35,509 nucleotides of DNA from a virus. Of this stretch, positions 3,690-21,466 are shown in pieces; position 1 is the first letter of the stretch, and every line of letters begins with the position of its first letter. A program made the translations under genes and the position numbers. The notes under the pieces were generated by a model. That model ran no database searches, was not told the DNA's origin, and saw nothing but the letters and a program-made list of their open reading frames with translations. Where the stretch lies: positions 1 to 35,509 of the IMG/VR virus record IMGVR_UViG_3300008517_000347. The stretch is one strand, 5' to 3'.

Positions 3690-5501
3690 ATGAGTGAACC
3701 TTTCCTATATCTTGAAGACCTTATTAAGGCAGAAGTTCCTAAGCCTCCAAAAGAGATTGGGGGAGGAGCCAAGGCCCCTGGTGCGCGCATGACGCTGGCT
3801 GGAGGGCCTAAAGCTACTCCTAAGGTAAGCGACAAGGCACAGGCCCTTGCCTCAGGTCCAGCCAAGGATATAGGCGGAGGTGTAGCTCCCCCCGCGCAGC
3901 AGACCTTAGCTCAGAAGAATCCAAACCCAGCACCTCTTCCAGCAGCCAAGGCAGCCGCTACACAGACGTATGAGTACTGGTCTGGTGATGGCGCTCCTCC
4001 TTCTTCCGGTGGATGGGAGAAGGGTCCCGAGGGTGGTTGGCGTCGTCCAGAGGGATCTGGTAGCGGAGGCAACAGCGAAGCAGACCACTTGATCGCGGAC
4101 ATGAAGCCCGCCGAGCCTGAGGATCCTGCTACAGCCCAGAAGCAAGCCCAGGAGCCCGACAAGAAGCTTGTCTCCTCAGGAGACCAGGAATCAGCGCCAG
4201 TGTCCTCCTCCGCTGAGAAGATTGAGCAAGCTAAGCAGGGAGCGGCCCCTACTCCTCCCGCGTCCGCAGAGGCCAAGAAGATTGCCAAGGAAGAGAAGAA
4301 CGTTCATAAGGAAGCAGAGAAGAAAGTCAGGGCTGAGGCCAAGAAGGCAGCTGACAAGGAAGCTAAGGAAGCAAAAGCAGATGTTTCTGTTGGTGCTGAC
4401 GGCAAGCCTAAGGGCAAGCCCGCAGACACCAGAAGCGCAGACGAGATTGAGATGGCCGCTGGAGCACATAAGAAGGCAGCCCGCTCCATGCTTAACGATA
4501 TGCAGGCGCACCTAGACTCTGGTGAAGTGACTGACCCAGAGGATAAGAGGCACTTAGAGGCTACTATCAAGGTTTTGGAAAAGCAGTCCTCTATGCCTGG
4601 AGTACCAGGCAAGGATGACACAGCTAAACTCAAGCTAGCCTCTCAGATTGCTAAGCAGCATAACGTAAAGCCTCCTAAGCCAGAAGGCGACGAAGAGCCC
4701 AAAGAGCAGGTCTCCAAGACTCCGAAGACGAACTACGGCGCAGTCTTTGATGCAGGCAGAGCAGCAGGCGAGCGCGCAGGCCATGCCGCCGCTACAGCGG
4801 AGGGCGCTGGGGATCTAGGCGCAAGTGTGCTAAGCTATGGTACTAGTGGTGCAGTCAGGGGTGGCCACCGTCTTCTCCAAGGAAACGAGAAGAAGGCAGC
4901 CACTGAAGCAGCTCCTAAGAAGGCTCCAGCAAAGGGAGCAGAAGTAGAGCAGTCGTCGATGAAGACAGAGAAATCTTTACCGCTATATATAGATCTAGAC
5001 ATACTCAAAGCAGTTAATGCCCCTAATGTGGGCCATACTACTCCCTCAGAGAGCCGTGCAAGAATAAAGCACGAGTCTTCCTATGCGAAGCGTCCTGTTG
5101 GTGTAGCTAACGAGGGTATCGTCACCGAAGACGACCCCGACGAAGGAAAGGAGTGGAAGCACGATGATGCGGATGCTGTTGAAACTTCTGTCGATCAGAA
5201 GCTTAAGGAAAAGAAGAAGGATGAAGAGGAGACAGAAGAGGAAACAGAAAAAGCCCTCCTAGCCGACCCTTCGTCTCTCCTCAAGTCCCTTAACACTGAA
5301 GTACGTTCGGAACTCAATAAGGTTCTTCCTTCTGACATGGAGACCGCCTTTATGGTAGATGTTCTCCAATACGACCCTGCTCTTGTGTCTAAAGGCCAGA
5401 AGCACATTATGGGCAGGGACCGTCACCTCTTTAATGAGTGGATGCAGGGCCGCCTATCCAAGTCTATCTCTTCGCTAACTGAGAGGATCGTTATCAAATG
5501 A
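3690..5501 (+). CDS. Large Ala/Lys/Pro-rich protein upstream of portal, function unknown
   Basis: The 603-aa protein is mostly low complexity. Residues 21-30 and 59-68 are a short repeat (KEIGGGAKAP and KDIGGGVAPP, each followed by a TLA). Residues 94-120 form an aromatic Gly/Trp motif containing SGGWEKGPEGGWRRP. Residues about 180-260 are Lys/Glu/Ala heptads likely to be helical. Then follow a middle segment TEKSLPLYIDLDILKAVN and an acidic stretch. The last about 80 residues (LLADPSSLLKSLNTEVRS onward) look folded. Its N-terminus, PFLYLEDLIKA, resembles the LYIDLDILKA segment and similar motifs in neighbouring proteins. It may be an internal head or scaffold-type component, but this is inferred only from position. 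It overlaps the portal gene by ATGA. Confidence 0.7.
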   Translation: MSEPFLYLEDLIKAEVPKPPKEIGGGAKAPGARMTLAGGPKATPKVSDKAQALASGPAKDIGGGVAPPAQQTLAQKNPNPAPLPAAKAAATQTYEYWSGDGAPPSSGGWEKGPEGGWRRPEGSGSGGNSEADHLIADMKPAEPEDPATAQKQAQEPDKKLVSSGDQESAPVSSSAEKIEQAKQGAAPTPPASAEAKKIAKEEKNVHKEAEKKVRAEAKKAADKEAKEAKADVSVGADGKPKGKPADTRSADEIEMAAGAHKKAARSMLNDMQAHLDSGEVTDPEDKRHLEATIKVLEKQSSMPGVPGKDDTAKLKLASQIAKQHNVKPPKPEGDEEPKEQVSKTPKTNYGAVFDAGRAAGERAGHAAATAEGAGDLGASVLSYGTSGAVRGGHRLLQGNEKKAATEAAPKKAPAKGAEVEQSSMKTEKSLPLYIDLDILKAVNAPNVGHTTPSESRARIKHESSYAKRPVGVANEGIVTEDDPDEGKEWKHDDADAVETSVDQKLKEKKKDEEETEEETEKALLADPSSLLKSLNTEVRSELNKVLPSDMETAFMVDVLQYDPALVSKGQKHIMGRDRHLFNEWMQGRLSKSISSLTERIVIK

Positions 5502-7255
5502 GTAACGACTGGAACGACACGTTCTCTGCCTGGAATGACCAGACCAAAGCAGTTCCTGCTATGGTAAGGGACCACATTAATAAGTCTCGAATGAAGCCAG
5601 AAGAGGCGGCTCGTGGAATGCGTTCCATGATGTTCGACCCACTGGCCATTCAGTATGCTATGGGATTCAAGGACCGTAAGTACTCCCTTACCTACGATGT
5701 TCTTAAGCGAATCCCTCACCAGGTTTCCGTAATCTCCGCCATCCTTCAGACTCGTTGTAACCAGGTTGCTGCGTTTAGCGTACCTTACCGTGCTTCTAAG
5801 AGTGTTGGCTTTGTTATTAAGCATAAGGACCCCAGCCACTTGACCACCAAGTCTGAGCAGGAGTTCATCAAAGACTTAGAGCGATTCATTTACAACTGTG
5901 GCTACGACAAGCCAAACCCACACAACAACACTAAGCGAGACGACTTCGAGAGTTTCCTCAAGAAGATTGTCCGCGACTCCCTTCAGTACGACCAGGCGTG
6001 TGTCGAGGTCATCCCTGACCGCCGAGGCAACCCCTATGAGTTTATGGCTGTTGATGCGGCTACGATTCGCATTGCCGCTGTAGACACCCCCTACGGTCCT
6101 AATGAAACCTGGAAGGGCCGCTCCCAGAACTACAGTGGACGCATGCTGGCAGAGCTGGACGCAGAGCCCAACCGCCACCCATACCGCGCTTTGAAGCTCT
6201 ACGAGGGCACTAAGTTCGATAAGAAGGCAGACTTCGTCCAGATCATCAATGGACAGATTGAAAACGTATACACCCGTGAAGAGCTTATGTTCGGTGTTCG
6301 TAACCCGCGTACCGACATTTACATCCAGGGCTACGGCTATGGAGAGCTTGAGCAGCTTGTAACTACTATCACCGCTCACCTCTACGCAGAGGAATACAAC
6401 CGTCGCTTCTTCAGTCAGGGCTCTGCCCCTAAGGGCATCCTGAACTTCAAGGGCGACTCCATGACCCCCGACCAGTTGGAAGGTTTCCGCCGTCAGTGGA
6501 GAGCCAACCTTGAGGGTGTGGACAACTCCTGGAGAACTCCCATCCTCCAGTCTGAGCAGGGTGTTGAGTGGCTAGACCTGAACCCAACCAACAAGGACAT
6601 GGAATACGGTTCGTGGTTGGAGTACCTAATCAAGATCACTTGTGGTGTGTTTCTTATCGACCCAGCCGAGATTAACTTCGACCTTAAGGGCGGCGTACAG
6701 CAGACTCCTTTGTTTGAGTCTTCTCAGGAGTGGAAGCTCAAGGCATCTCGTGACCGAGGCTTGAAGCCTCTCCTTCGTTTCATCGCGAAGCAGATCAACG
6801 AGAACATCATCAGCCAGATTGATGACCACTTCGTATTCGACTTCGCAGGACTTGAGGAGCTTACCGAGCAGGAGAAGCATACGCTTCGCACCGAGCAGGT
6901 TTCCTCCTACCTCACTCTGAACGAGGTCCGTCGTTCCGATGATCTCCCTGATCTAGAGCATGGCGACCTTCCAATGAACCCAGCGTATCTCCAGGCTATG
7001 CAGCAGAGAATGGCTGAGGAGCAGCAGAAAGACCAGATGGAGCAACAGAAGGCCCAGATGGAAGCTCAGCAGGCTGCACAGGAGGGTGCCGCTGGCGGAG
7101 AAGGCGGAGGAGAAGGAATGGGAGAGGCCGAGGATGAGGTAAATGCACCTCAGTACAGCGACTCTTTCGGAAAGTCTCTTGCCGTAGTACAAGGTGACAA
7201 GTACTTGGAGATTGACCTTAACGATTTGGATGACTGGAAAGACAGCATCGGATGA
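5498..7255 (+). CDS. Portal protein
   Basis: The 585-aa protein shows the phage portal pattern: an early region IPHQVSVISAILQTRCNQVA, typical of the portal helix where the polypeptide samples 'I-x-x-x-I-x-x-R-x-x-Q', then YDQACVEVIPDRRGNPYEFM, a crown/wing region with VDAATIRIA, and the segment YGYGELEQLVTTITAHLYAE followed by FFSQGSAPKGIL, which is very characteristic of SPO1-like and related portals. The C-terminal about 80 residues are Gln/Ala/Glu/Gly-rich. The protein would form the dodecameric DNA channel at the head vertex. The final segment contains FGKSLAVVQG and KYLEIDL, similar to motifs in neighbouring proteins. It overlaps flanking genes by ATGA on both sides. Confidence 0.93.
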   Translation: MSNDWNDTFSAWNDQTKAVPAMVRDHINKSRMKPEEAARGMRSMMFDPLAIQYAMGFKDRKYSLTYDVLKRIPHQVSVISAILQTRCNQVAAFSVPYRASKSVGFVIKHKDPSHLTTKSEQEFIKDLERFIYNCGYDKPNPHNNTKRDDFESFLKKIVRDSLQYDQACVEVIPDRRGNPYEFMAVDAATIRIAAVDTPYGPNETWKGRSQNYSGRMLAELDAEPNRHPYRALKLYEGTKFDKKADFVQIINGQIENVYTREELMFGVRNPRTDIYIQGYGYGELEQLVTTITAHLYAEEYNRRFFSQGSAPKGILNFKGDSMTPDQLEGFRRQWRANLEGVDNSWRTPILQSEQGVEWLDLNPTNKDMEYGSWLEYLIKITCGVFLIDPAEINFDLKGGVQQTPLFESSQEWKLKASRDRGLKPLLRFIAKQINENIISQIDDHFVFDFAGLEELTEQEKHTLRTEQVSSYLTLNEVRRSDDLPDLEHGDLPMNPAYLQAMQQRMAEEQQKDQMEQQKAQMEAQQAAQEGAAGGEGGGEGMGEAEDEVNAPQYSDSFGKSLAVVQGDKYLEIDLNDLDDWKDSIG

Positions 7256-7755
7256 AACATAAGCTAGCCTATAGGACGACCTTTCATGGCCTTCCTATCT
7301 CAATTGAGAATAGGGCTGGCTCGACCAGGCACTGGTATGACCCGGAGGCAGACGAGCACGGGACTACCAAGCAACTACACCCCTACGGATATGTTAGGGG
7401 TACATTAGGGCTCGATGGGGATGAAGTAGATGTCTACCTGGGACCAGAGAAGGAATCCGATAAGGTTTTCGTTATCACCCAGATGAAGAGATTTGAGTTC
7501 GAACAGGTAGATGAACAAAAGGTAATGCTAGGTTTCCCAGACGCTGATAGCGCCAAACATGCCTATACACAGCACTTTAATGATGCCAGGTTCTTTGGTG
7601 ATATGAAAGAAATGACAATGGACGAGTTTAAGAACAAACTAGAAAAGAAGAAAGGTAAGCTTATCAAGTCTGAGAAGCTGTACCTGAAGAAGTCTATTGT
7701 TGATAGTAATATCCCCGGTAGACCGAATCTCTATCTAAATCCTCGAAAAGTATGA
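7252..7755 (+). CDS. Stand-alone inorganic-pyrophosphatase-like (InPase) domain protein
   Basis: Residues about 8-130 of this 167-aa protein match the phage InPase domain known from polyvalent proteins: HGLPISIENRAGSTR (12-26), YGYVRGT (45-51), DGDEVDVYLGP (55-65), which parallels the D-x-D-x-x-D metal site of inorganic pyrophosphatase, VFVITQ and DEQKVMLGF. In known elements this domain is thought to hydrolyse a phosphoanhydride or nucleotide-like substrate; its real substrate is unsettled. The C-terminal about 30 residues (LIKSEKLYLKKSIVDS) lie outside the domain and resemble short motifs in nearby proteins. The gene follows the portal through an ATGA overlap. Family recognition is by motif only, but fairly clear. 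Confidence 0.78.
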   Translation: MKHKLAYRTTFHGLPISIENRAGSTRHWYDPEADEHGTTKQLHPYGYVRGTLGLDGDEVDVYLGPEKESDKVFVITQMKRFEFEQVDEQKVMLGFPDADSAKHAYTQHFNDARFFGDMKEMTMDEFKNKLEKKKGKLIKSEKLYLKKSIVDSNIPGRPNLYLNPRKV

Positions 7756-7791
7756 GAATAAGTGATATACTACAAATGGAGTATACTCTAA

Positions 7792-8415
7792 ATGCCCGCA
7801 CTTAAACCCAATAAGCTAAAGCCCGTCTCTGAGGTAGGTAGTAAGACTACTTTTACCCAGACTGGTTCGCCTATGAAGAAGGCAGAGAAGCTTGTGGGTG
7901 GGGAAGGTGATAACTCCCCCGATTCCGCTTTTGACCCGGAGCAGCTGAAAGCTGGAATTAAGGTCGAACTAGAACACACTAAGGACCGTGCAGTGGCAAA
8001 AGAAGTTGCTAAGGACCACCTCACCGAGTCTCCTGATTACTACAAGAAGTTAAAGGTAATGGAATCTGATATGGATGCTACTAAAAGTTTGGTTGAGATT
8101 ACTAAGGCTCTAAAGGCTATGGCCGTGTTAGGGCTTAGTCGTCGCGCACGTATGGACGTTGCCTACAAGGTGGGTGTAGCCGCAGGTAGCCAGGCTGCTG
8201 AAGGTCCTTTCACTACCCAAGATCTCTCTAAGGAGAAGCTCAACATTGGTATCACCAAAGAGCAGCTTCGCCCTTCTTACGAGCCCCCAGTTGTTCCTGT
8301 CCGTCGTGTTGAGACGCCAGGCTTCATCGCACCTAAGCCGTGCGGAGACCACGAGTACAAGACCACCCCCGCTGGACCTGAAGAGGCCAAACCACTTTCG
8401 GAGCGTGAAAGATGA
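7792..8415 (+). CDS. DUF5661-like domain protein
   Basis: In this 207-aa protein residues 47-91 match the small helical DUF5661 pattern: a lead FDPEQLKAGIKVELEHTKD, then VAKDHLTESPDYYKKL, with the conserved ELEHT and DHLxExPxYY elements. This domain is common in phage head-region and MuF-type proteins, with unknown activity. The rest is probably disordered: a Pro/Lys N-terminus, a segment ATKSLVEITKALKAM, and a Pro-rich end. A GGAG ribosome site (7778-7781) precedes ATG 7792. It overlaps the next gene by ATGA. I would treat it as a structural accessory or cargo protein. Confidence 0.72.
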   Translation: MPALKPNKLKPVSEVGSKTTFTQTGSPMKKAEKLVGGEGDNSPDSAFDPEQLKAGIKVELEHTKDRAVAKEVAKDHLTESPDYYKKLKVMESDMDATKSLVEITKALKAMAVLGLSRRARMDVAYKVGVAAGSQAAEGPFTTQDLSKEKLNIGITKEQLRPSYEPPVVPVRRVETPGFIAPKPCGDHEYKTTPAGPEEAKPLSERER

Positions 8416-8843
8416 AAAAGCGTTTATACATAGGCGAGGACAAGCTCGGGTTTCTCCGTAAGAGCAAGGAGCAGACCGGAGAGCACCAGGGCGGAACCTA
8501 CGTGGCTCGCGTCCAGACAGGAACCGAGAAGGATGGCTCCCCTCAGTACCGCTACTTCCGCTCCCAGGCAGACTACAATGAGTACCTTTCGCGTGCTCGT
8601 GATGCCAAGCAAAAGGGCGCAGGCAAAGTTCAAGGCGGCAAGAAGGGCAATAAGCCTTCCGGCAAGGAGCGCCTCAAGGCTAAACTTAAGGAAGAACAAG
8701 AGAGTTCCTCCCAGAAGACCAGAAGTAACCAAGCTAATAAAGTCACTAGTAAAGATGATGACAAAAAGAAGCGAAGCTTGCTAAGCGGCGATAAGACAGC
8801 TAAAAGCATGAGAATATACCTAGGAGATACCGATGTCGAATAA
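8412..8843 (+). CDS. Small Lys-rich protein with N- and C-terminal LY[LI]G motifs
   Basis: The 143-aa protein is strongly basic (many Lys, Arg, Gln and Ser) and probably largely disordered apart from residues 20-60, where a TYVARVQTG...QYRYFRSQADY segment could form a small beta unit. Its N-terminus has RLYIGEDKLGFLRKS and its last residues are SMRIYLGDTDVE, so the same short aromatic/acidic motif occurs at both ends. The first copy is almost identical to LYLGEDKINKS in the 99-aa protein encoded at 10265-10564. No family is recognised. It overlaps both neighbours (4 and 11 bases), so it is translated with the morphogenesis group. Confidence 0.7.
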   Translation: MKKRLYIGEDKLGFLRKSKEQTGEHQGGTYVARVQTGTEKDGSPQYRYFRSQADYNEYLSRARDAKQKGAGKVQGGKKGNKPSGKERLKAKLKEEQESSSQKTRSNQANKVTSKDDDKKKRSLLSGDKTAKSMRIYLGDTDVE

Positions 8844-9348
8844 CCTTCCAAGAAGACCAGTGCGATTCGTTCCACAGAACGACGAGCTGTTGAAGTCCCA
8901 AGAGGGAATAGCAGGCCAGAGAAAGGGCGCAACTGACTTCAGTGAAGATCAGGTCGTTGCTCATGTCCCTGTTCCCGTCCAAACCTACAGAACCCCCGTG
9001 GGCCGTCTAAACGGCAACGAGTTCTTCCGTCGTTACATGGATGGCAGCCTTGATATCAAGTATGCTGCTTCCAAGGTAATCGATGCACTTCACCGTTCTA
9101 AGGACGGTGGTGGAGTTGACCAGCTTAACTCCGAGGAAAAGGTCTGCCTTAGCGTTCTTTTCCCTGAGGTGTTTATGGAGGTTGATGCAGCTATCGTATC
9201 GACCGTTGCGGCAGTTCAGTTGAAGATCACTGTTGATGAGATGTATGCTATCAAGCAGCTAGTAGCTCGTCATCTTCAGGAAGAGCTTAACTACAACGCC
9301 GGTCGTGGAGGTAACTCCGCTCCAGGTCGTCACCAGACCCGGTCGTAA
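8833..9348 (+). CDS. Hypothetical protein, mixed helical
   Basis: The 171-aa protein is not recognised. It has a basic N-terminal segment (PRRPVRFVPQ), then LLKSQEGIAGQRKG, a Pro/Val-rich part, and a compact helical-looking region about 60-155 with FFRRYMDGSLDIKYAASKVIDAL and a Leu/Ile/Val-rich core up to ARHLQEELNY. The C-terminus is Gly/Arg-rich. The start overlaps the previous gene by 11 bases and the stop TAA shares an A with ATG of the next gene. Position suggests a virion-associated or assembly role, but nothing in the sequence proves it. Confidence 0.65.
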   Translation: MSNNLPRRPVRFVPQNDELLKSQEGIAGQRKGATDFSEDQVVAHVPVPVQTYRTPVGRLNGNEFFRRYMDGSLDIKYAASKVIDALHRSKDGGGVDQLNSEEKVCLSVLFPEVFMEVDAAIVSTVAAVQLKITVDEMYAIKQLVARHLQEELNYNAGRGGNSAPGRHQTRS

Positions 9349-9554
9349 TGAGAGTAAAAACAAACCTGTCCTCTGAGGAGCTTATGCTCGTTAGTAAGGG
9401 CCTCAGCAAGTTGGCTAAGAAGCAGCAGGCTGACGGTAGGTTTGTTCCAAATAACCCAGCAGAGAAAGATTTGCTTGCAGAAGCAGGTGGGTCTATCGAC
9501 GAAATGCTGGACAGTCTAAAGTCAGCAGTGTCTGACTTGTTCAAAGGGGAGTGA
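9348..9554 (+). CDS. Small hypothetical helical protein
   Basis: A 68-aa protein with TNLSSEELMLVSKGLSKLAK at the start and a DEMLDSLKSAVSDLFKG amphipathic helix at the end. It is acidic at the C-terminus and has no Cys, signal or membrane segment. The function is not known. It starts in a TAATG overlap with the upstream gene and ends 10 bases before the lipoprotein protease gene, so it is probably part of the same operon. Confidence 0.6.
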   Translation: MRVKTNLSSEELMLVSKGLSKLAKKQQADGRFVPNNPAEKDLLAEAGGSIDEMLDSLKSAVSDLFKGE

Positions 9555-9564
9555 AAGGCCGTAT

Positions 9565-10263
9565 GTGAGACCGATTCTCTTCCTTATAGTTCTTGTTCTT
9601 TGCAGTTGTAAATATACCCCAAGCCCCGTTATTCCGGGAGAGCAAGTAAACCATTCCTCCCACTCTACTGTGGCTCTTGTGGCTCCTAAAAGCTTCTTTG
9701 CCAAAGAAGGAGAGCAGTGGGCTTTTTGTACTGGTTCCTTTGTGAGTCAGTATGAGGTTCTTACAGCGAACCATTGTGTAACTGAGATTGGGGATAGGAT
9801 TAGGATTGCTACCTACTCCGACTATGTGGCCACTGACGGCACCTTCGATGGAGGAAAGTGGACCGAGTTTCATGTAGTCAAGATGTTCAAGGACGCTGAC
9901 CTAGCCCTGCTACGGATAGTGAAGAGTGAAAAGTCCAGGCTGCCAAATCATACTGTTTTCGCTCTTGGAGACCGCCCCCCTAATGTAGGAGAGCAAGTAT
10001 ACATTGTAGGCCACCCCAATATGACTCTTTGGACCTACACCATAGACATTGTGTCAAGCGCCCTTAGGATGGTTGACAAGTTCGGAGAACCTAGGAAGTT
10101 CTTCCAACACCAGACCCCGGTATTTGAGGGCAACTCTGGTGGCCCCGTAATCTCCATGTATGGAGATCTAGTAGGAGTAGTATCCCTTTACACTCCAGGA
10201 ATCAGTCAACTAAATCTATCCGTCCATTTGGATGAGATCAAACAGTTTCTAGTGAGAAAGTAA
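9565..10263 (+). CDS. Secreted trypsin-like serine protease with lipoprotein signal
   Basis: The start codon is GTG (an ATG two bases upstream is followed immediately by a stop). The 232-aa protein begins MRPILFLIVLVLCSC, a hydrophobic signal peptide with lipobox-like LCSC, Cys15 being the likely lipidated residue. The mature part has a chymotrypsin-fold protease pattern: CTGSFV and TANHC with His70, ADLALLRI with Asp112, and EGNSGGPV with Ser191. The catalytic triad is complete, and Cys55/Cys71 could form the usual disulphide. It therefore should act outside the cytoplasmic membrane as an active S1-type protease. It is odd to find this among head genes. Roles could include superinfection control, surface-protein cleavage or envelope work at entry or exit. 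Confidence 0.88.
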   Translation: MRPILFLIVLVLCSCKYTPSPVIPGEQVNHSSHSTVALVAPKSFFAKEGEQWAFCTGSFVSQYEVLTANHCVTEIGDRIRIATYSDYVATDGTFDGGKWTEFHVVKMFKDADLALLRIVKSEKSRLPNHTVFALGDRPPNVGEQVYIVGHPNMTLWTYTIDIVSSALRMVDKFGEPRKFFQHQTPVFEGNSGGPVISMYGDLVGVVSLYTPGISQLNLSVHLDEIKQFLVRK

Positions 10264-10264
10264 T

Positions 10265-10564
10265 ATGCCATCATACAAAGATAGTCCTAAGCCATTACGA
10301 AAAAGTGACCCCAACCCCCTTTTCACAGAGGGAAATGATGATTATATAGTAAAGGCAGCAAATGCTATGGAGCGTCAGCGTACAGCTGATGGTTCCCAGC
10401 ACAGCATGAATCGTCCAAGCTCTGTAGAACCAACAGGATATGACGAGTCGCTGTACCTCGGTGAGGATAAGATCAACAAGTCCGACAAGTCCGTGTCCGC
10501 TCAGATGGACCGGGATGATATTGATGCGGATGAGGTTGTTAAGTCTTGGTTGGAAGCAAAGTAA
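10265..10564 (+). CDS. Small hydrophilic protein with LYLGEDK motif
   Basis: The 99-aa protein begins two bases after the protease stop. It is hydrophilic, with many Asp, Ser, Lys and Pro, and is likely mostly unstructured. Residues 63-73 read LYLGEDKINKS, almost the same as residues 5-12 of the Lys-rich protein encoded at 8412-8843. A second part, DDIDADEVVKSWLEAK, forms an acidic helix at the end. No enzyme motif is present. It could be an internal head protein or small adapter, inferred only from neighbours and the shared motif. Confidence 0.65.
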   Translation: MPSYKDSPKPLRKSDPNPLFTEGNDDYIVKAANAMERQRTADGSQHSMNRPSSVEPTGYDESLYLGEDKINKSDKSVSAQMDRDDIDADEVVKSWLEAK

Positions 10565-10575
10565 AATAATATATA

Positions 10576-13527
10576 ATGGACAATCGGTTAGCGTCATTAC
10601 GCAGGTTACTGCGTATTCATATAAATTGGCTGACCGTAAAGTTACTTGGTAAGGAGCTAGTCTCAAAAGAGGAGCTAGCCGAGCTGAAGGACTACGGTAG
10701 GCTATCTTTGGGGGATGAGGTAGGACTGGTCGAACGGTCTTTCATCCTGGGCCGTACCAGTGCGACCGGCAAGAAGTCCGATTATAAAGATTTAACACTA
10801 GACAAGCTATCGAGGCTCCAGAAGAGAAAGTTCTCTAATGCCGAGCAACTAGCACTGAGAGAAGCGAAGCTCCACACCGCTCGTCGTATACAGGCCCTTG
10901 CCGACGACGCAGCAGCTGGGGCTTCTGCGCGTGTGAACAACGCCACCCAGGACCTCCTAACGGACGCTACCGTTAAGCAGATCCTGGAAGACGAGATCGC
11001 CATAGCCCTGGCAGAGAAGAAGTCCCGACAGCAACTTGCCACCACCGTAGGCAACGCCCTGGGAAGAGACCTTACTTCCGGCCTCAAGAAGCTCATGGTC
11101 ACGGAGATGCACCGCGCCAAGACCCGTGGTGTAGCGATGGCTATCGCCAACAAGGTAGACATCTATTCCTCCTCCGATGGGGTTGAGTCAATTGTAAGTG
11201 TTGTCCCAAATAGAGAAGCGTGCGACGACTGCCGCAACCTCTACACTACAGACACGGGCAACCCTAGAATATTTAAGCTCTCTGACCTAGTAGGCCAGGG
11301 AAGCAACTCTGACGAAGGAGTCAGCCACTCCCGAAAAGGTGGGCTCCACCTTGGTTGGAAGCCTGTGCTGCCACCGGCACACCCCAACTGCTACTGCGAA
11401 CTAACGTATGTCCCACCAGGAATGGCGTGGGAGAACGGTAGGCTAAAGGTCACCGACGAGCTACGCTACAAGAACCAGATCAGTAAGGCTGTTGACAAGG
11501 GCTCTATGTCCCCCAAGGTCAAGCCTCCGGGTCCGAAGAGTACCCAAGGTCCTGATACTCCTAAGGTAGGAAGCATTCCTGGTATTGCCGCTCCAGGGAA
11601 CGTTGCAGGCCCAGGACGACCTCCATCCGCACAAACAACTGCAGAGGCAGTCACCCCTTGGGAAAGCGGCCCTGGAGCAAAGACTCAGCCAGCAAAGGAA
11701 GAGGAAGGCTCCTCTCCAGACAACAAGGTTCCTTGTCCTTATGGAGGAGGAACAGACTGCACCAAGCATGGTGGCTCGGGCGGTAAGATGCACGACCCCA
11801 ACGGTGAGAGCATGACTGCGCACCGCGAGTTCGACGATTTCAAGTCTCGCGTAGAGGATGACCAGAGAGACCCTGTGGAGGTAGCAGAAGAGCACGCAGG
11901 GAAGATGCTCATTGCTAAAGATTATGACCCTATGTCCAAGCCCCTAGAGGTCATGAAGGACCATGTTGTCAACGGAACGATTATAAACTCTAAGCCTATG
12001 AAGGGCCACGGCGGGTCTATACATGAGTCTTATAAGCGAACCATTGAAGGTAACGGTTCCTATTTAGGGAAGCCTGGCAGCACTGAGTTCGGCTCTGGCG
12101 TGCATAGAGAAGCTGCGGCGTCCGAGCATTATGCGTACTTTGGTAGCGATAGATGCCCCCCTACGTTTGTTAGGACTAAAGGGCCTCTACCTGAGAGTGG
12201 ACAAGTTTGGTTAGAAGAGTACGATAATGCCTTTACCCGCATGGAAAAGGTTATGGAAGAGAAGTCTCCACGCGGGCTAGAGGAGCGGGGAGCCTTGATT
12301 TACGCCATCCTAGACGTTGCTCCCGATAAGGATAAAGCTGTTGAGCAATTGTCTGCCATTGCTGTACAGGATATTGTTATGTGTAACAGTGATCGGCATA
12401 TAGAAAACTTCATGATAAATGAAGACTACTCTGATATCAGGGCAATCGACCACGGATTTTGTTACGAGACTGGATTAAACCACTATAACAGTTCTATCCA
12501 TCAAGGGTTCCACTCTAATAATAGGCCCCTAAGAATTCCTCCTGCGATGCGAGAGATATTTGACAACACGACATACGGGGATCTGAAGCGTTCTGGTGGG
12601 GATGCTCATCTTCAGGAGTGGCAGACAGCACAAACCTACCTTCGCATGAAGTACACTATGCACGTAGCCGACAACAACGACGGCAAGCTACCCTACGAGG
12701 AGTTCGATAGTGCAGGCTATGGTTTCGGTGCAAGCAAGACAGCATTTAGAGATAATGGATCTGAAAAGTTTGAAGACTTTATGGTTGATTTTATCGATGA
12801 GCATAGCAAAAACGAGGATAGCCCCGAGTACGCCACAGCCAAACACTTTGCTGAAATTGGAGTGTTCATGCCTCCTTGGATTCGTCAAGTAGAGCCAGAG
12901 TATCACGCGGCGGAACTAGGCAAAGGAGGGCACTATCAGTACGAGCAGTTTGTCAGAACTGAAAAAGCGGTAGCTGAAGCAGCTAAGAGAGGAAACAAGG
13001 ACTGGACTGCTCAAGAGAAAGAAAAGTATGATAAGGAAGTCCTTAATCTAAACAAGGAAGAGCTAGAAGCTGCTAAGAAGAATGTTTTCGACTTGGGTAT
13101 AGCGTATGACCAAGCAAATGAAGACTTCGCCAAATGGCAAAACGACAACCCTGGCGTTTTCGGGGACGTGTTTATGGCGGAACAAGACAAGACTGATGTT
13201 GCTATGGCAGCTCTCAATAGAGGAAGAATAGAAGAAGACGTGTTAAAGAAGGAAACAAGAACCCGTCAACTTGACGAACGAGCTAAGTTCCAGGTTATGG
13301 CCGAGAAAGATGTTGCGCGCTTTGAGGAGCTAGACAGGAAGATTGCCGACGCACAAACGGGTACTCCCAGAGGCCGAAAACAAATGGCCTACAGAATGGA
13401 GCCCGGAACTAGCACTAGGTCGGCGGCGGATATTGAGAGTGAGAAACGACAGATAAAGCCTAAGGACCCGGATCTTGAGGGCTTAGGGTGGGCAGGCAGA
13501 TCGAAGGGACCAGGTAAGAATGGCTAA
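10576..13527 (+). CDS. MuF-like minor head protein fused to a phosphoinositide-kinase-like domain
   Basis: In this 983-aa protein residues about 85-280 form a MuF/SPP1 gp7-type head morphogenesis domain: LTSGLKKLMVTEMHRAKTRG, the Cys pair CDDC (216, 219), RIFKLSDL, and PPAHPNCYC (His269, Cys272, Cys274), the family's diagnostic Cys/His end. Residues 300-385 are a Pro/Gly linker. Residues 387-400 carry C-x2-GGG-x2-C-x3-GG. Residues about 445-630 look like a PI3/PI4-kinase-like fold: GSIHESYKRTI with SYLGKP (Lys499), REAAASE (Glu512), CNSDRHIENFMI (Asp606, Arg607, His608, Asn611) and AIDHG (Asp625). The remaining part is charged and coiled-coil-like. No clear ribosome site is seen before ATG 10576. 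The MuF part is firm; the kinase-like part is by motif, moderately sure. Confidence 0.82.
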   Translation: MDNRLASLRRLLRIHINWLTVKLLGKELVSKEELAELKDYGRLSLGDEVGLVERSFILGRTSATGKKSDYKDLTLDKLSRLQKRKFSNAEQLALREAKLHTARRIQALADDAAAGASARVNNATQDLLTDATVKQILEDEIAIALAEKKSRQQLATTVGNALGRDLTSGLKKLMVTEMHRAKTRGVAMAIANKVDIYSSSDGVESIVSVVPNREACDDCRNLYTTDTGNPRIFKLSDLVGQGSNSDEGVSHSRKGGLHLGWKPVLPPAHPNCYCELTYVPPGMAWENGRLKVTDELRYKNQISKAVDKGSMSPKVKPPGPKSTQGPDTPKVGSIPGIAAPGNVAGPGRPPSAQTTAEAVTPWESGPGAKTQPAKEEEGSSPDNKVPCPYGGGTDCTKHGGSGGKMHDPNGESMTAHREFDDFKSRVEDDQRDPVEVAEEHAGKMLIAKDYDPMSKPLEVMKDHVVNGTIINSKPMKGHGGSIHESYKRTIEGNGSYLGKPGSTEFGSGVHREAAASEHYAYFGSDRCPPTFVRTKGPLPESGQVWLEEYDNAFTRMEKVMEEKSPRGLEERGALIYAILDVAPDKDKAVEQLSAIAVQDIVMCNSDRHIENFMINEDYSDIRAIDHGFCYETGLNHYNSSIHQGFHSNNRPLRIPPAMREIFDNTTYGDLKRSGGDAHLQEWQTAQTYLRMKYTMHVADNNDGKLPYEEFDSAGYGFGASKTAFRDNGSEKFEDFMVDFIDEHSKNEDSPEYATAKHFAEIGVFMPPWIRQVEPEYHAAELGKGGHYQYEQFVRTEKAVAEAAKRGNKDWTAQEKEKYDKEVLNLNKEELEAAKKNVFDLGIAYDQANEDFAKWQNDNPGVFGDVFMAEQDKTDVAMAALNRGRIEEDVLKKETRTRQLDERAKFQVMAEKDVARFEELDRKIADAQTGTPRGRKQMAYRMEPGTSTRSAADIESEKRQIKPKDPDLEGLGWAGRSKGPGKNG

Positions 13528-13756
13528 AGAAGAAATAAGAGAGTCTGAGATTGAGTTCATTTCCTATGGGAAGAACGAGAAAGTAGAAGGCTCAGTCTGG
13601 TGGAACGGCAAGAAAGTGGACTCAGATTCCAAGCTATTGCTCGCCAGGCTTAAAGATCTTAGAATTAAAGACCTAACCATCGATGATGGTGTAGAGTTTC
13701 TTGAGGAGCTACCGGCTAGATTCCGTAGCTACCTGACCGCTAGAAAGGTATTATGA
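13520..13756 (+). CDS. Small hypothetical protein
   Basis: A 78-aa acidic/basic mixed protein that starts eight bases before the end of the MuF-kinase gene and ends in an ATGA overlap with the next one. A central Leu/Ile-rich section (LLLARLKDLRIKDLTI, then a Phe/Leu-rich end) suggests a small alpha/beta fold. No family is recognised. The tight overlap on both sides means its translation is coupled to the kinase fusion; it may be a partner or small regulator of it, but this is inference. Confidence 0.6.
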   Translation: MAKEEIRESEIEFISYGKNEKVEGSVWWNGKKVDSDSKLLLARLKDLRIKDLTIDDGVEFLEELPARFRSYLTARKVL

Positions 13757-14229
13757 TGCTTCGTAAATGTATACACGGGGGAGGCAGTAGCTGTTCCCGT
13801 CAGGGAGGAGACGGCTCCTTGCAGCATAGGGCGGATTTCGTGCATCCCTACCCTACTATTGATGAGGCCGGTCTCCCCGTGGGCGATTTCGTAGAGAAAT
13901 CACACTCCAGCCAGGAGACACATTCTTTGTCAGATTTCACTATTGACTTTGATGAAGATAACACTTCTGCTATTATGTCACTAGTCCTATCAAAGGGTAT
14001 CGATGTGGGTGACTTGATTAAGTCCCTCTACGATTTCGACTTGGAGACTGAAGAAGGAATCCGGAAGCTTCTGGGCCTTCTCCCTGTTCTCGACCCTGAG
14101 ATTGTTGTTGATTTAGTAGAGAAGATTTGGCCTGGGTATGCCGTACAAGAAGAAGACCCAGACCTGTTGAGAGCCGAGGTTAAGGGGTACCTCCTAGATT
14201 ACTTAGGAGAAGATGATGCAGCCATTTGA
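13753..14229 (+). CDS. Hypothetical acidic protein with N-terminal C-x2-GGG-x2-C motif
   Basis: A 158-aa protein; ATG 13753 and ATG 13756 are both possible starts. Residues 6-19 read CIHGGGSSCSRQGG, which has the same spacing as CPYGGGTDCTKHGG in the linker of the MuF-kinase protein just upstream. After this comes a His-containing stretch and a long acidic part with Leu/Ile/Val (DVGDLIKSLYDFDLETEEG, then LLPVLDPEIVVDLVEKIWPGY), likely helical. The function is unknown. The shared motif suggests both proteins bind the same ligand or partner, or share a metal site. Confidence 0.65.
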   Translation: MMLRKCIHGGGSSCSRQGGDGSLQHRADFVHPYPTIDEAGLPVGDFVEKSHSSQETHSLSDFTIDFDEDNTSAIMSLVLSKGIDVGDLIKSLYDFDLETEEGIRKLLGLLPVLDPEIVVDLVEKIWPGYAVQEEDPDLLRAEVKGYLLDYLGEDDAAI

Positions 14230-14737
14230 AATAGTCTTAGTATGCTCCGCGTCAGGAGCTATTGCCGGTTGGCTGTGGTCCTTCCATAAGGTGAAGATGA
14301 TGGAGCACAGCCTGGATAAGGCAACGTGCAAAGTTCAGAAACGAACGGAAGCACTACACAACCTAGAGAAGCTGATTGAAAACAGTCTAACCGCCTTCTC
14401 ACAGCTTGAGGCATTCGCAGAGAAGACATTAGATGGTTTGGCAATAATCAAACATGTGGACAAGAAAGATTCTCATTTTGTATACGCCAACCCTGCCATG
14501 AGCCAAACGCTAGGCTACACGCAGGATGAGCTTATTAGCCGTCCGTGGAGAGAGTTCCTAGTTTCAGAAGACAACAACGTAGAAGAAGTGACAAGAGCAT
14601 TAGCTACAGGAAAGCCGGTGCGCAGAGTTCTTGGTGAGTATAAGTGTAAGGACGGAAGCAAGAAGCTCCTTTCCGTATCCTCCTGTCCCGCAGATGAGGA
14701 AGGCTTTATTTACGCAGTATTCAGAGAGATATCGTAA
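14213..14737 (+). CDS. Membrane-anchored PAS-domain protein
   Basis: The 174-aa protein has one N-terminal membrane segment (about 5-24, IVLVCSASGAIAGWLWSF), a helical linker (about 30-68) with KRTEALHNLEKLIENS, then a PAS domain (about 69-173). The PAS signature is clear: FVYANPAMSQTLGYTQDELI, followed by a GRPW-like SRPWREFL, then a KPVRRVLGEYKCKDGS beta segment and LLSVSSCPADEEGFIYAVFREI. There is no kinase, GGDEF or HTH output domain, so it could act as a sensor/adapter for a ligand, redox state or partner protein. PAS domains are uncommon in phage morphogenesis clusters. It overlaps the preceding gene by 17 bases and the next by one. Confidence 0.82.
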   Translation: MMQPFEIVLVCSASGAIAGWLWSFHKVKMMEHSLDKATCKVQKRTEALHNLEKLIENSLTAFSQLEAFAEKTLDGLAIIKHVDKKDSHFVYANPAMSQTLGYTQDELISRPWREFLVSEDNNVEEVTRALATGKPVRRVLGEYKCKDGSKKLLSVSSCPADEEGFIYAVFREIS

Positions 14738-20011: not shown

Positions 20012-21466
20012 ATGACTATTGGTCTTAGATCCTTTCAGTCTTCTACGTCAGGCATGTCCGGATTCGGTGCAGGAACCGACCAGGATATCGCTGAGCTTAG
20101 CAAAGCTCTTGAAGCAGGCTACCAGACAGGCGCAGGCAAGACGGGCGGTTCCGCTCTTCGTGTCGAGTCTCTTGAAGCAAGCCTCAAGGTACTTACGTAC
20201 ACTTCTTCCCACATCAAGTTCTGGAAGAAGATCCCTAAGAGCCCAGCTTACTCGACCGTAGAAGAGTACAACCAGCTTATCAATTACGGTGGATCTCAAA
20301 ATCCATTCGTTCAAGAAGGTGAGCTTCCACAGGCAACTGACACTAGCTACGCACGTCGCGTTCAGCTTGTTAAGTTCCTTGGTACCACACGCGAGGTCAC
20401 GCATCAGGCATCCCTTGTTCACCCAGCTCATGGCGACTTGATCGCTCTTGAGAACCAGTCGGGCATCCTTTGGTTGCTTGAGCAGGTAGAACGTAACTTG
20501 TTCTCGGGTGACTCCTCTCTCTCCTTCGACGGTGAAGCAGAGCAGTGGGACGGTCTTGATTCGTTGATTGACGCTTCCTCTGTTCTTGACTTGGAGGGTA
20601 ACTCCATTCAGGAAGCAGACATGGAAGAGGCCGCTAACGAGATCATCGAGAACTACGGTTTCCCAACCGACATGTTCCTCGGTACTCGTACAATGAGCGA
20701 CCTTGTCAAGACGTTCTACCCACGTGAGCGTATCAGCCTCCCTGCACCACAAAATGGTCAGGTTGGTCAGACAATCCAGACGATCAGCACCCAGGCTGGC
20801 GTAATTGAGTTCAACCCGGATGTCTTCATTCGCCAGAACGCAACGCCTCCAGCAGCTGCAACGTCTCCTAACGCCCCAGCGGCTCCAGTGATTATCGCTG
20901 CGATTACGCCAGCTGGTACCTCCGGCGATCACAACAAGGGTGCCCCAACCGGTACTTCCAACGTGAACTACGTCGCAACGGCTTGTAACCGCTTCGGTGA
21001 GTCCGCTCCTTCCCCATTTCAGGCTGCGGTTGAGGCTCTCACTCAGGCTAACAAGGATGGCGGTCTTAGCCTTCCTGTGTCCGTTGATAACGCCGGTTCT
21101 GTCGGCGCTTTCCCAACTGAGTACCTACGCATTTACCGTTCGGCCGCAACTCTTGCAGCTGGCGTTCCTACGGATCTTTCAGCTTACTCGCTGATCGCTC
21201 AGGTACCTGTAGCATCCCAGGCTGCTTCCGGAACGACAGTATTCGACGATGTGAACCTCACACTACCATTTACGTCCACGGCGTACTTGGGTGAGCTTAC
21301 ACCTTCGGTTGTCACCTTCCGTCAGCTCATGCCTATGATGAAGATGGACCTTGCAGTTCTCTCCCCAGCTTACCGCTGGATGATTCTTCTGTACGGTACT
21401 CCAATCCTCTTCGCTCCTAAGAAGTGGATCCGCATGATCAACATCGGTCGTCTCGAAGTTCGATAA
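20012..21466 (+). CDS. Major capsid protein with inserted Ig/Fn3-like domain
   Basis: The 484-aa protein shows the HK97-fold capsid pattern of SPO1-like phages: an N-terminal arm with ALRVESLEASLKVLTY, the strand EEYNQLINYG, FVQEGELPQATDTSYARR, GTTREVTHQASLV, the helix NQSGILWLLEQVERNLF, a DGLDSLID loop, FPTDMFLGTRTMSDLVKTFY and the C-terminal AYRWMILLYGTPILFAPKKW. Residues about 287-423 are an extra beta domain (APAAPVIIAAITPAGTSG, NVNYVATACNRFGESAPSP, TEYLRIYRSA) of fibronectin/Ig type, probably exposed on the shell. The ribosome site is GGAG (gGGAGatattaaaATG). The gene is followed by a strong terminator. Capsid assignment is firm. Confidence 0.93.
   Translation: MTIGLRSFQSSTSGMSGFGAGTDQDIAELSKALEAGYQTGAGKTGGSALRVESLEASLKVLTYTSSHIKFWKKIPKSPAYSTVEEYNQLINYGGSQNPFVQEGELPQATDTSYARRVQLVKFLGTTREVTHQASLVHPAHGDLIALENQSGILWLLEQVERNLFSGDSSLSFDGEAEQWDGLDSLIDASSVLDLEGNSIQEADMEEAANEIIENYGFPTDMFLGTRTMSDLVKTFYPRERISLPAPQNGQVGQTIQTISTQAGVIEFNPDVFIRQNATPPAAATSPNAPAAPVIIAAITPAGTSGDHNKGAPTGTSNVNYVATACNRFGESAPSPFQAAVEALTQANKDGGLSLPVSVDNAGSVGAFPTEYLRIYRSAATLAAGVPTDLSAYSLIAQVPVASQAASGTTVFDDVNLTLPFTSTAYLGELTPSVVTFRQLMPMMKMDLAVLSPAYRWMILLYGTPILFAPKKWIRMINIGRLEVR

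Follow-up and report, generated by a model that had tools for sequence, protein, structure and literature searches.

A predicted PI4KII/Fam20-type kinase on a MuF-like head protein of an SPO1-like phage, with a small downstream partner gene

The subject of this analysis is an open reading frame (ORF) at positions 10576–13527 of IMG/VR record IMGVR_UViG_3300008517_000347, together with the small gene that overlaps its end. The window, i.e., the whole stretch of 35,509 nt that was analysed, is a 35.5-kb virus record representing a fragment. The ORF starts with ATG, contains no internal stops and encodes a protein of 983 amino acids (aa) in which a divergent MuF-like head domain (residues 1–300) is followed by a linker and a two-lobed kinase (residues ~455–735). 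Computation established the fold and complete active site of this kinase, the fusion of such kinases to several types of head protein, a cassette-like divergence and the pairing with a small gene. The features on which the argument rests, all on the plus strand, are as follows.

10576–13527 (+): MuF-like head protein with a PI4KII/Fam20-type kinase domain, 983 aa
10576–11475 (+): MuF-like carrier domain, residues 1–300, 79–95% identical in relatives
11221–11232 (+): CDDC, first Cys pair of the MuF end, residues 216–219
11371–11403 (+): PPAHPNCYCEL, Cys/His end of the MuF domain, residues 266–276
11512–13743 (+): hypervariable cassette of 2.2 kb, kinase plus 78-aa gene
11734–11793 (+): linker motif CPYGGGTDCTKHGGSGGKMH, zinc-site-like, which recurs in the gene at 13753
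11938–12780 (+): kinase domain, N- and C-lobe, residues ~455–735, from the predicted structure
12070–12072 (+): K499, the beta-3 ATP lysine
12109–12111 (+): E512, the alpha-C glutamate
12391–12408 (+): DRHIEN catalytic loop, D606 to N611
12448–12456 (+): DHG with the metal-binding D625
13520–13756 (+): partner gene, 78 aa, overlapping the kinase ORF by 8 nt

The kinase domain and its MuF-like carrier

The preliminary description of this DNA had pointed to a series of kinase motifs and had read the pair D-R-H-x-x-N plus I-D-H-G as the mark of PI3/PI4-kinase-like folds. All of these motifs were found at the residues named—SYLGKP with K499, REAAASE with E512, CNSDRHIENF with D606 and N611, and AIDHG with D625—and the family reading was borne out by two profile matches and by the retention of the residues. 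PF00454 matched residues 589–632 with E=6e-6 and 26.7 bits in a search of the whole library, just below its 27.1 cut-off, and reached 28.8 bits, above that cut-off, in a single-genome search; TIGR03843 (NCBIfam) matched over residues 509–631 with E=3e-7. Four related contigs were compared (L002, L003/L009, L004/L008 and L005/L007), and PF00454 matched all five members of the window family, in which K499, E512, N604, D606, R607, H608, N611, D625, H626 and G627 are invariant despite a cassette only ~28–33% identical to its relatives. Additionally, phrog_3162, a PHROG with no assigned function, overlaps the kinase in several members. Comparison of the kinase part with phage records yielded nothing but noise at E 7–8, relatives being found for the MuF part only, and a tblastn-confirmed scan of genome contigs brought up no homologue of the window cassette in bacteria.

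IMG/VR DNA was scanned twice for the pattern DRHxxN-x(10,11)-ID[HN]G, which returned at least 205 distinct in-frame ORFs; these counts are lower bounds for kinases of exactly that spacing, and inactive relatives fall outside their scope. An alignment of 80 viral kinases, made up of the window family and the non-redundant part of the motif-scan ORFs, showed K499, E512 and D599, which lie outside the search motif, to be nearly invariant. With this alignment, AlphaFold2 modelled residues 450–760 with a mean predicted local distance difference test score (pLDDT) of 90.5 and a predicted template modelling score (pTM) of 0.90, and both kinase lobes were formed. An earlier AlphaFold model built from five sequences, with a poor N-lobe and a pLDDT of 52.7, was superseded.

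The best solved match of the model in VIA-align 2 was PI4KIIalpha, with a Z of 20.3 over 243 aligned aa (3.1 Å, 18% identity). PI4KIIalpha and PI4KIIbeta ranked first, followed by CtkA (Z 17.3), Fam20 (16.3), HipT (13.4), HipA (13.0) and actin-fragmin kinase (12.4)—an order with which Foldseek agreed (PI4KIIbeta, E 7e-7). A profile of the phage kinases run against PDB sequences likewise reached PI4K2A with E 1e-16 and Fam20-type proteins from 2e-15. Among predicted viral structures, Foldseek returned uncultured Caudovirales proteins already named 'PI3K/PI4K catalytic domain', as well as an HK97-type portal, a Mycobacterium phage ADP-ribosyltransferase and proteins of HSTV-2 and HHTV-1. The kinase fold put forward in the preliminary description was thus found with both its N- and C-lobe and with PI4KII, CtkA, Fam20 and HipT/HipA among its matches; the PI3/PI4K-like superfamily stands, refined in that the nearest solved structures are PI4KII, CtkA and Fam20, not class I PI3K. 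From sequence and model together, we read the domain as a complete PI4KII/Fam20/HipA-type kinase with a predicted intact active site; in shape it resembles animal kinases that act on lipids or in the secretory pathway.

In the carrier, both CDDC (216–219) and PPAHPNCYC (266–274) are present, as the preliminary description had it, the CxxC and HPNCxC of the MuF end are invariant and the gene lies in a head context; the MuF assignment itself turned out weaker than worded there. PF04233 (MuF) remained sub-threshold, with 14.3 bits against a cut-off of 29.6 and E=0.07 library-wide, and gave E=0.003 with a full-length alignment (19–111 of 112) in a single-genome search. Comparison of the carrier with independent MuF domains by hhalign returned E=4e-4 over 103 columns at a probability of only 36%. 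In the phage record search, residues ~47–322 were 27–29% identical to proteins of SPO1-like phages, and in Goe26 and LysYB1 (Herelleviridae) the carrier homologue is a 286-aa standalone gene without a kinase, 27% identical. The MuF domain of this ORF is a divergent one of SPO1 type. Judged by sequence, its MuF signal is real but weak; the head-gene context is solid, and the strongest support for a head protein comes from this neighbourhood. Matches of the ORF to designed Pizza propellers, obtained by phmmer against solved structures around the CDDC stretch, were set aside as chance.

A motif of the form CxxGGGxxCxx[HQ]GGxGxxxH is present twice in all five phages, with small variations: once in the linker of the kinase and once where the following gene (13753–14229) begins; a zinc site or a virion-targeting tag is possible.

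The partner gene and the hypervariable cassette

The 78-aa gene was hidden from an ORF list with an 80-aa limit and was missed in the preliminary description. ORFs of 70–92 aa lie directly downstream of MuF-kinases and of one minor-capsid kinase in other phages, and they align with the 78-aa protein as one divergent family. A profile of 26 partner relatives matched 75 of 13,647 ORFs across all loci, 66 of them within -250 to +350 nt of the end of a kinase ORF (background 439/13,647); this profile was built partly from kinase neighbours, and the first profile is the fairer test. Outside its seed set, 23 of the 34 matches of that first profile start no more than 60 nt from a kinase end, against a background of 217 of 13,647 ORFs—a pairing with a Fisher p of 3e-34, some loci being near-duplicates. 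A search against solved structures found no relative of the partner. HipS, or the HipA N-subdomain, was considered as its identity and rejected, PF13657 (Couple_hipA) not being matched. In one further locus (L118:15-3207), two tandem kinase ORFs are each followed by a partner gene of their own.

Comparison with the related contigs located the variation sharply. L001 matches the window at 99.8% identity across 8.2 kb. Against L002, the DNA is 88–92% identical at 6068–11511 and again from 13744, whereas 11512–13743 has no alignable DNA except a 22-nt match at 11733. Protein identities in this pair are 95% for the MuF part, 28% for the kinase, 44% for the 78-aa gene and 94–95% for the next two genes. 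Across the four contigs compared, genes outside the cassette range from 62.9% (the 99-aa gene at 10265 versus L007/L008) to 95%, and cassette proteins from 28% to 44%. Between L004 and L005, the MuF parts are 99–100% identical and the kinase regions 56–74%. A conflict between MuF and kinase trees was looked for and rejected, since the unrooted topologies agree; what differs is the window branch, which measures 2.3 substitutions per site for the kinase but has a length of about zero for MuF. On the basis of this localised divergence and of the branch lengths—rather than of tree topology—kinase and partner appear to have been exchanged jointly, as one cassette, while their carrier was conserved. 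Separately, a conserved basic tail (ALSHHGKMLKDAKRDLKRMKRG...) ends the kinase ORF in L002, L004 and L005 and is absent in the window and L003.

Related kinases and the head gene cluster

The motif scan supplied 86 representative long ORFs. PF00454 matched 75 of them, and head families were recognised in the same set: MuF in 15 and minor capsid protein 2 in 8, besides six matches to portal families (one protein can have several matches). Kinase and MuF share one ORF in at least 10 loci (L172, L197, L122, L107, L155, L054, L128, L097, L058 and L191), the fusions in L058 and L191 being weak (E 2e-4 to 4e-4). With 68 bits against the window-family profile, L191, itself a MuF fusion, ranks as the nearest relative outside the family among the matches listed. 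Other carriers occur as well, with the kinase fused to minor capsid 2 in L193 (9e-99 and 1e-6) and to a Mu portal in L231 (4e-58 and 1e-10). The proposed fusion to a head protein is backed by its head-gene context, and the many fusions of this sort elsewhere, whether to MuF, to portal or to minor-capsid proteins, support it too. Large phage proteins of three further loci (L101, L168 and L201) contain two or three separate PF00454 stretches per ORF, and the one in L101 begins with a NUDIX domain.

Two cultured archaeal viruses, HSTV-2 (L239:10647-12339) and HHTV-1 (L240:9436-13022), have a kinase-like gene in the head cluster followed by an overlapping gene of 76 or 95 aa. ORF16 of HSTV-2 matches PF00454 with E=2e-7 and lies three genes past the capsid gene; ORF13 of HHTV-1, two genes ahead of gpF, shows the kinase motif by eye, and no PF00454 match was found for it. 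HSTV-2 ORF17 is a weak partner candidate (9.6 bits), and the small gene of HHTV-1 has no such resemblance. A guess that the HSTV-2 kinase begins with HK97-gp10 was tried and not borne out.

In the window, library profiles place portal, scaffold, major capsid and tail sheath genes around the MuF-kinase ORF, all on the same strand. The capsid and portal proteins are nearest (41–45% identity) to those of Bacillus, Lysinibacillus and Exiguobacterium phages of the SPO1 group (Herelleviridae), a group that we take to be of the lytic kind.

5498–7255 (+): portal protein, ~42% identical to SPO1-like phages
9565–10263 (+): trypsin-like protease (E 2e-19), 312 nt upstream of the MuF-kinase gene
20012–21466 (+): major capsid protein, ~45% identical to SPO1-like phages

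A 99-aa gene (at 10265) lies between the protease and the MuF-kinase gene; the protease might be a processing enzyme that could free the kinase from its carrier. Adjoining the gene at 13753, a 174-aa protein (14213–14737) ends in a PAS domain (E 9e-11), which is odd for a phage structural region. A stand-alone InPase domain (PF18823, E 2e-34) occupies 7252–7755, its PHROGs matches being parts of large phage proteins. Finally, 90–2390 holds in succession a tRNA-Ser(GGA), an IMP dehydrogenase-type enzyme (E 4e-90), a metallophosphoesterase and a peptide deformylase (E 1e-45).

Interpretation and comparison with known systems

On balance, and with some reserve, we favour the explanation that the locus encodes a kinase effector carried in the virion, probably injected, and accompanied by a cognate partner in an SPO1-like phage. 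The MuF-like N-terminal domain would bring the protein into the phage head in low copy number, a placement suggested by MuF biology and by gene position. The kinase domain could then leave the capsid along with the DNA and phosphorylate a host target early in infection. By analogy with HipA, HipT, CtkA and Fam20, that target would more likely be a protein than a phosphoinositide. The 78-aa product is probably a cognate binding protein, given the conserved pairing and its joint divergence with the kinase; it may keep the kinase inactive in the producing cell or guide it into the head, i.e., act as an inhibitor or a packaging aid. The two genes would be swapped as a unit, as in polymorphic toxin–immunity pairs.

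Several observations weigh against this effector explanation. A partner is detectable in only 47 of the 107 kinase ORFs of at least 450 aa with downstream room. In L231, L183 and L131, the partner lies at the beginning of the following ORF, or close to it, and MuF at that ORF's end; the kinase is encoded one ORF earlier (a portal in L231). A partner–MuF fusion in three phages is odd for a soluble antitoxin. In a presumably lytic phage, a classical immunity gene is of less obvious use. Moreover, relatives are mostly metagenomic, and the distant kinases were found by their catalytic motif, so that motif conservation among them is not independent evidence.

The arrangement in L231, L183 and L131 also bears on two other readings. 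The kinase might act in the producing cell or in the head on virion proteins (portal, MuF, scaffold or capsid), controlling assembly or DNA release, with the partner as activator or docking site. Fusion partners do sit at or near the portal vertex, and in these three phages a kinase–partner contact would join the preceding ORF to the MuF-bearing one; but replacement has struck the kinase and spared the remainder of the head cluster, and such variation is not expected of an assembly enzyme whose substrates are conserved. As the MuF homologue of SPO1-like relatives is, in addition, a kinase-free protein of 286 aa, we regard this reading as unlikely. Still less probable is a non-catalytic docking clamp formed by kinase fold and partner at the portal vertex: the partner is fused to MuF where the kinase is on the preceding ORF, yet no catalytic or metal-binding residue has been lost in the window family, highly divergent as its members are, and the 80 viral kinases retain the Lys and Glu for which the search did not select, which leaves the clamp very improbable in our view. 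Between these two in likelihood, and quite improbable too, stands a true phosphoinositide kinase that alters the host membrane on entry, like the bacterial effector kinases that act on phosphoinositides in eukaryotic cells. Judged by Z, no solved structure comes nearer than PI4K type II, but CtkA and Fam20 are close behind, and CtkA, Fam20 and HipT are protein kinases of the same fold; to our knowledge, phosphatidylinositol is absent from most bacteria, which counts against a lipid substrate.

That effector domains ride on phage head proteins is already known. In the open-access papers searched, no description of the kinase–head fusion or of its paired small gene was found, and many unrelated viruses have the kinase–partner pair on their head proteins, a recurrence suggestive of a hitherto undescribed kinase weapon that is delivered along with viral DNA. 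A more sweeping proposal, which we hold tentatively and think rather doubtful, is that a mobile two-gene module, made up of a PI4KII/Fam20-type kinase and a small cognate inhibitor from a new family, is common to tailed viruses of bacteria and of archaea, in which it is fused to different head proteins and injected as a toxin–antitoxin-like weapon. If injected, the kinase would give a direct means of studying how host processes are switched by phages as infection begins; the pairing makes silencing of the kinase by the small protein a ready test, and HSTV-2, a cultured archaeal virus with a related kinase in its head cluster, makes the question approachable in an isolate.

Delivery of effectors by phage head fusions is an established proposal (PMC5512222, PMC5576092), with direct precedents in the polyvalent-protein concept (PMC5512222) and in MuF toxins with downstream immunity genes (PMC5576092, PMC12226406). 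The MuF polymorphic toxins (Jamet et al. 2017, PMC5576092; Apk2, PMC12226406) share with the present system the MuF N-terminal carrier, the variable C-terminal enzyme, the small ORF directly downstream and the head gene cluster. They differ in that no kinase of the present fold was found in their descriptions (PMC5576092, PMC12226406), in that they are described in temperate phages (PMC5576092, PMC12226406) whereas this one lies in an SPO1-like cluster, and in that the present partner is a separate family. Kinase-PolyVal (PF18762; PMC5512222) is likewise a kinase domain, found in phage proteins that are presumed to be delivered, but is described as having lost its C-terminal subdomain (PMC5512222), while the present kinase has a full C-lobe. 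As a candidate identity, PF18762 was rejected, with no match at E<=1 in ten records or among the Pfam hits of the window.

The SCO1664 family (TIGR03843), a bacterial protein of unknown function, is the best family-level match besides PF00454 (~30 bits, and 55 bits in L191), although the scores here are far below its 172-bit cut-off. CtkA of Helicobacter pylori, HipA and HipT, all of them kinases from bacteria, have this fold too (Z 17, 13 and 13) but, unlike the present one, are not head proteins; the Couple_hipA domain of HipA was, moreover, not found in the 13 records tested, partner genes included. HipA-like kinases, which act on translation, count as a further direct precedent. Phosphatidylinositol 4-kinase type II, finally, shares the whole kinase fold (Z ~20) and the catalytic residues, but at 16–19% identity, and the present kinase is set apart from it by its fusion to a virion protein.
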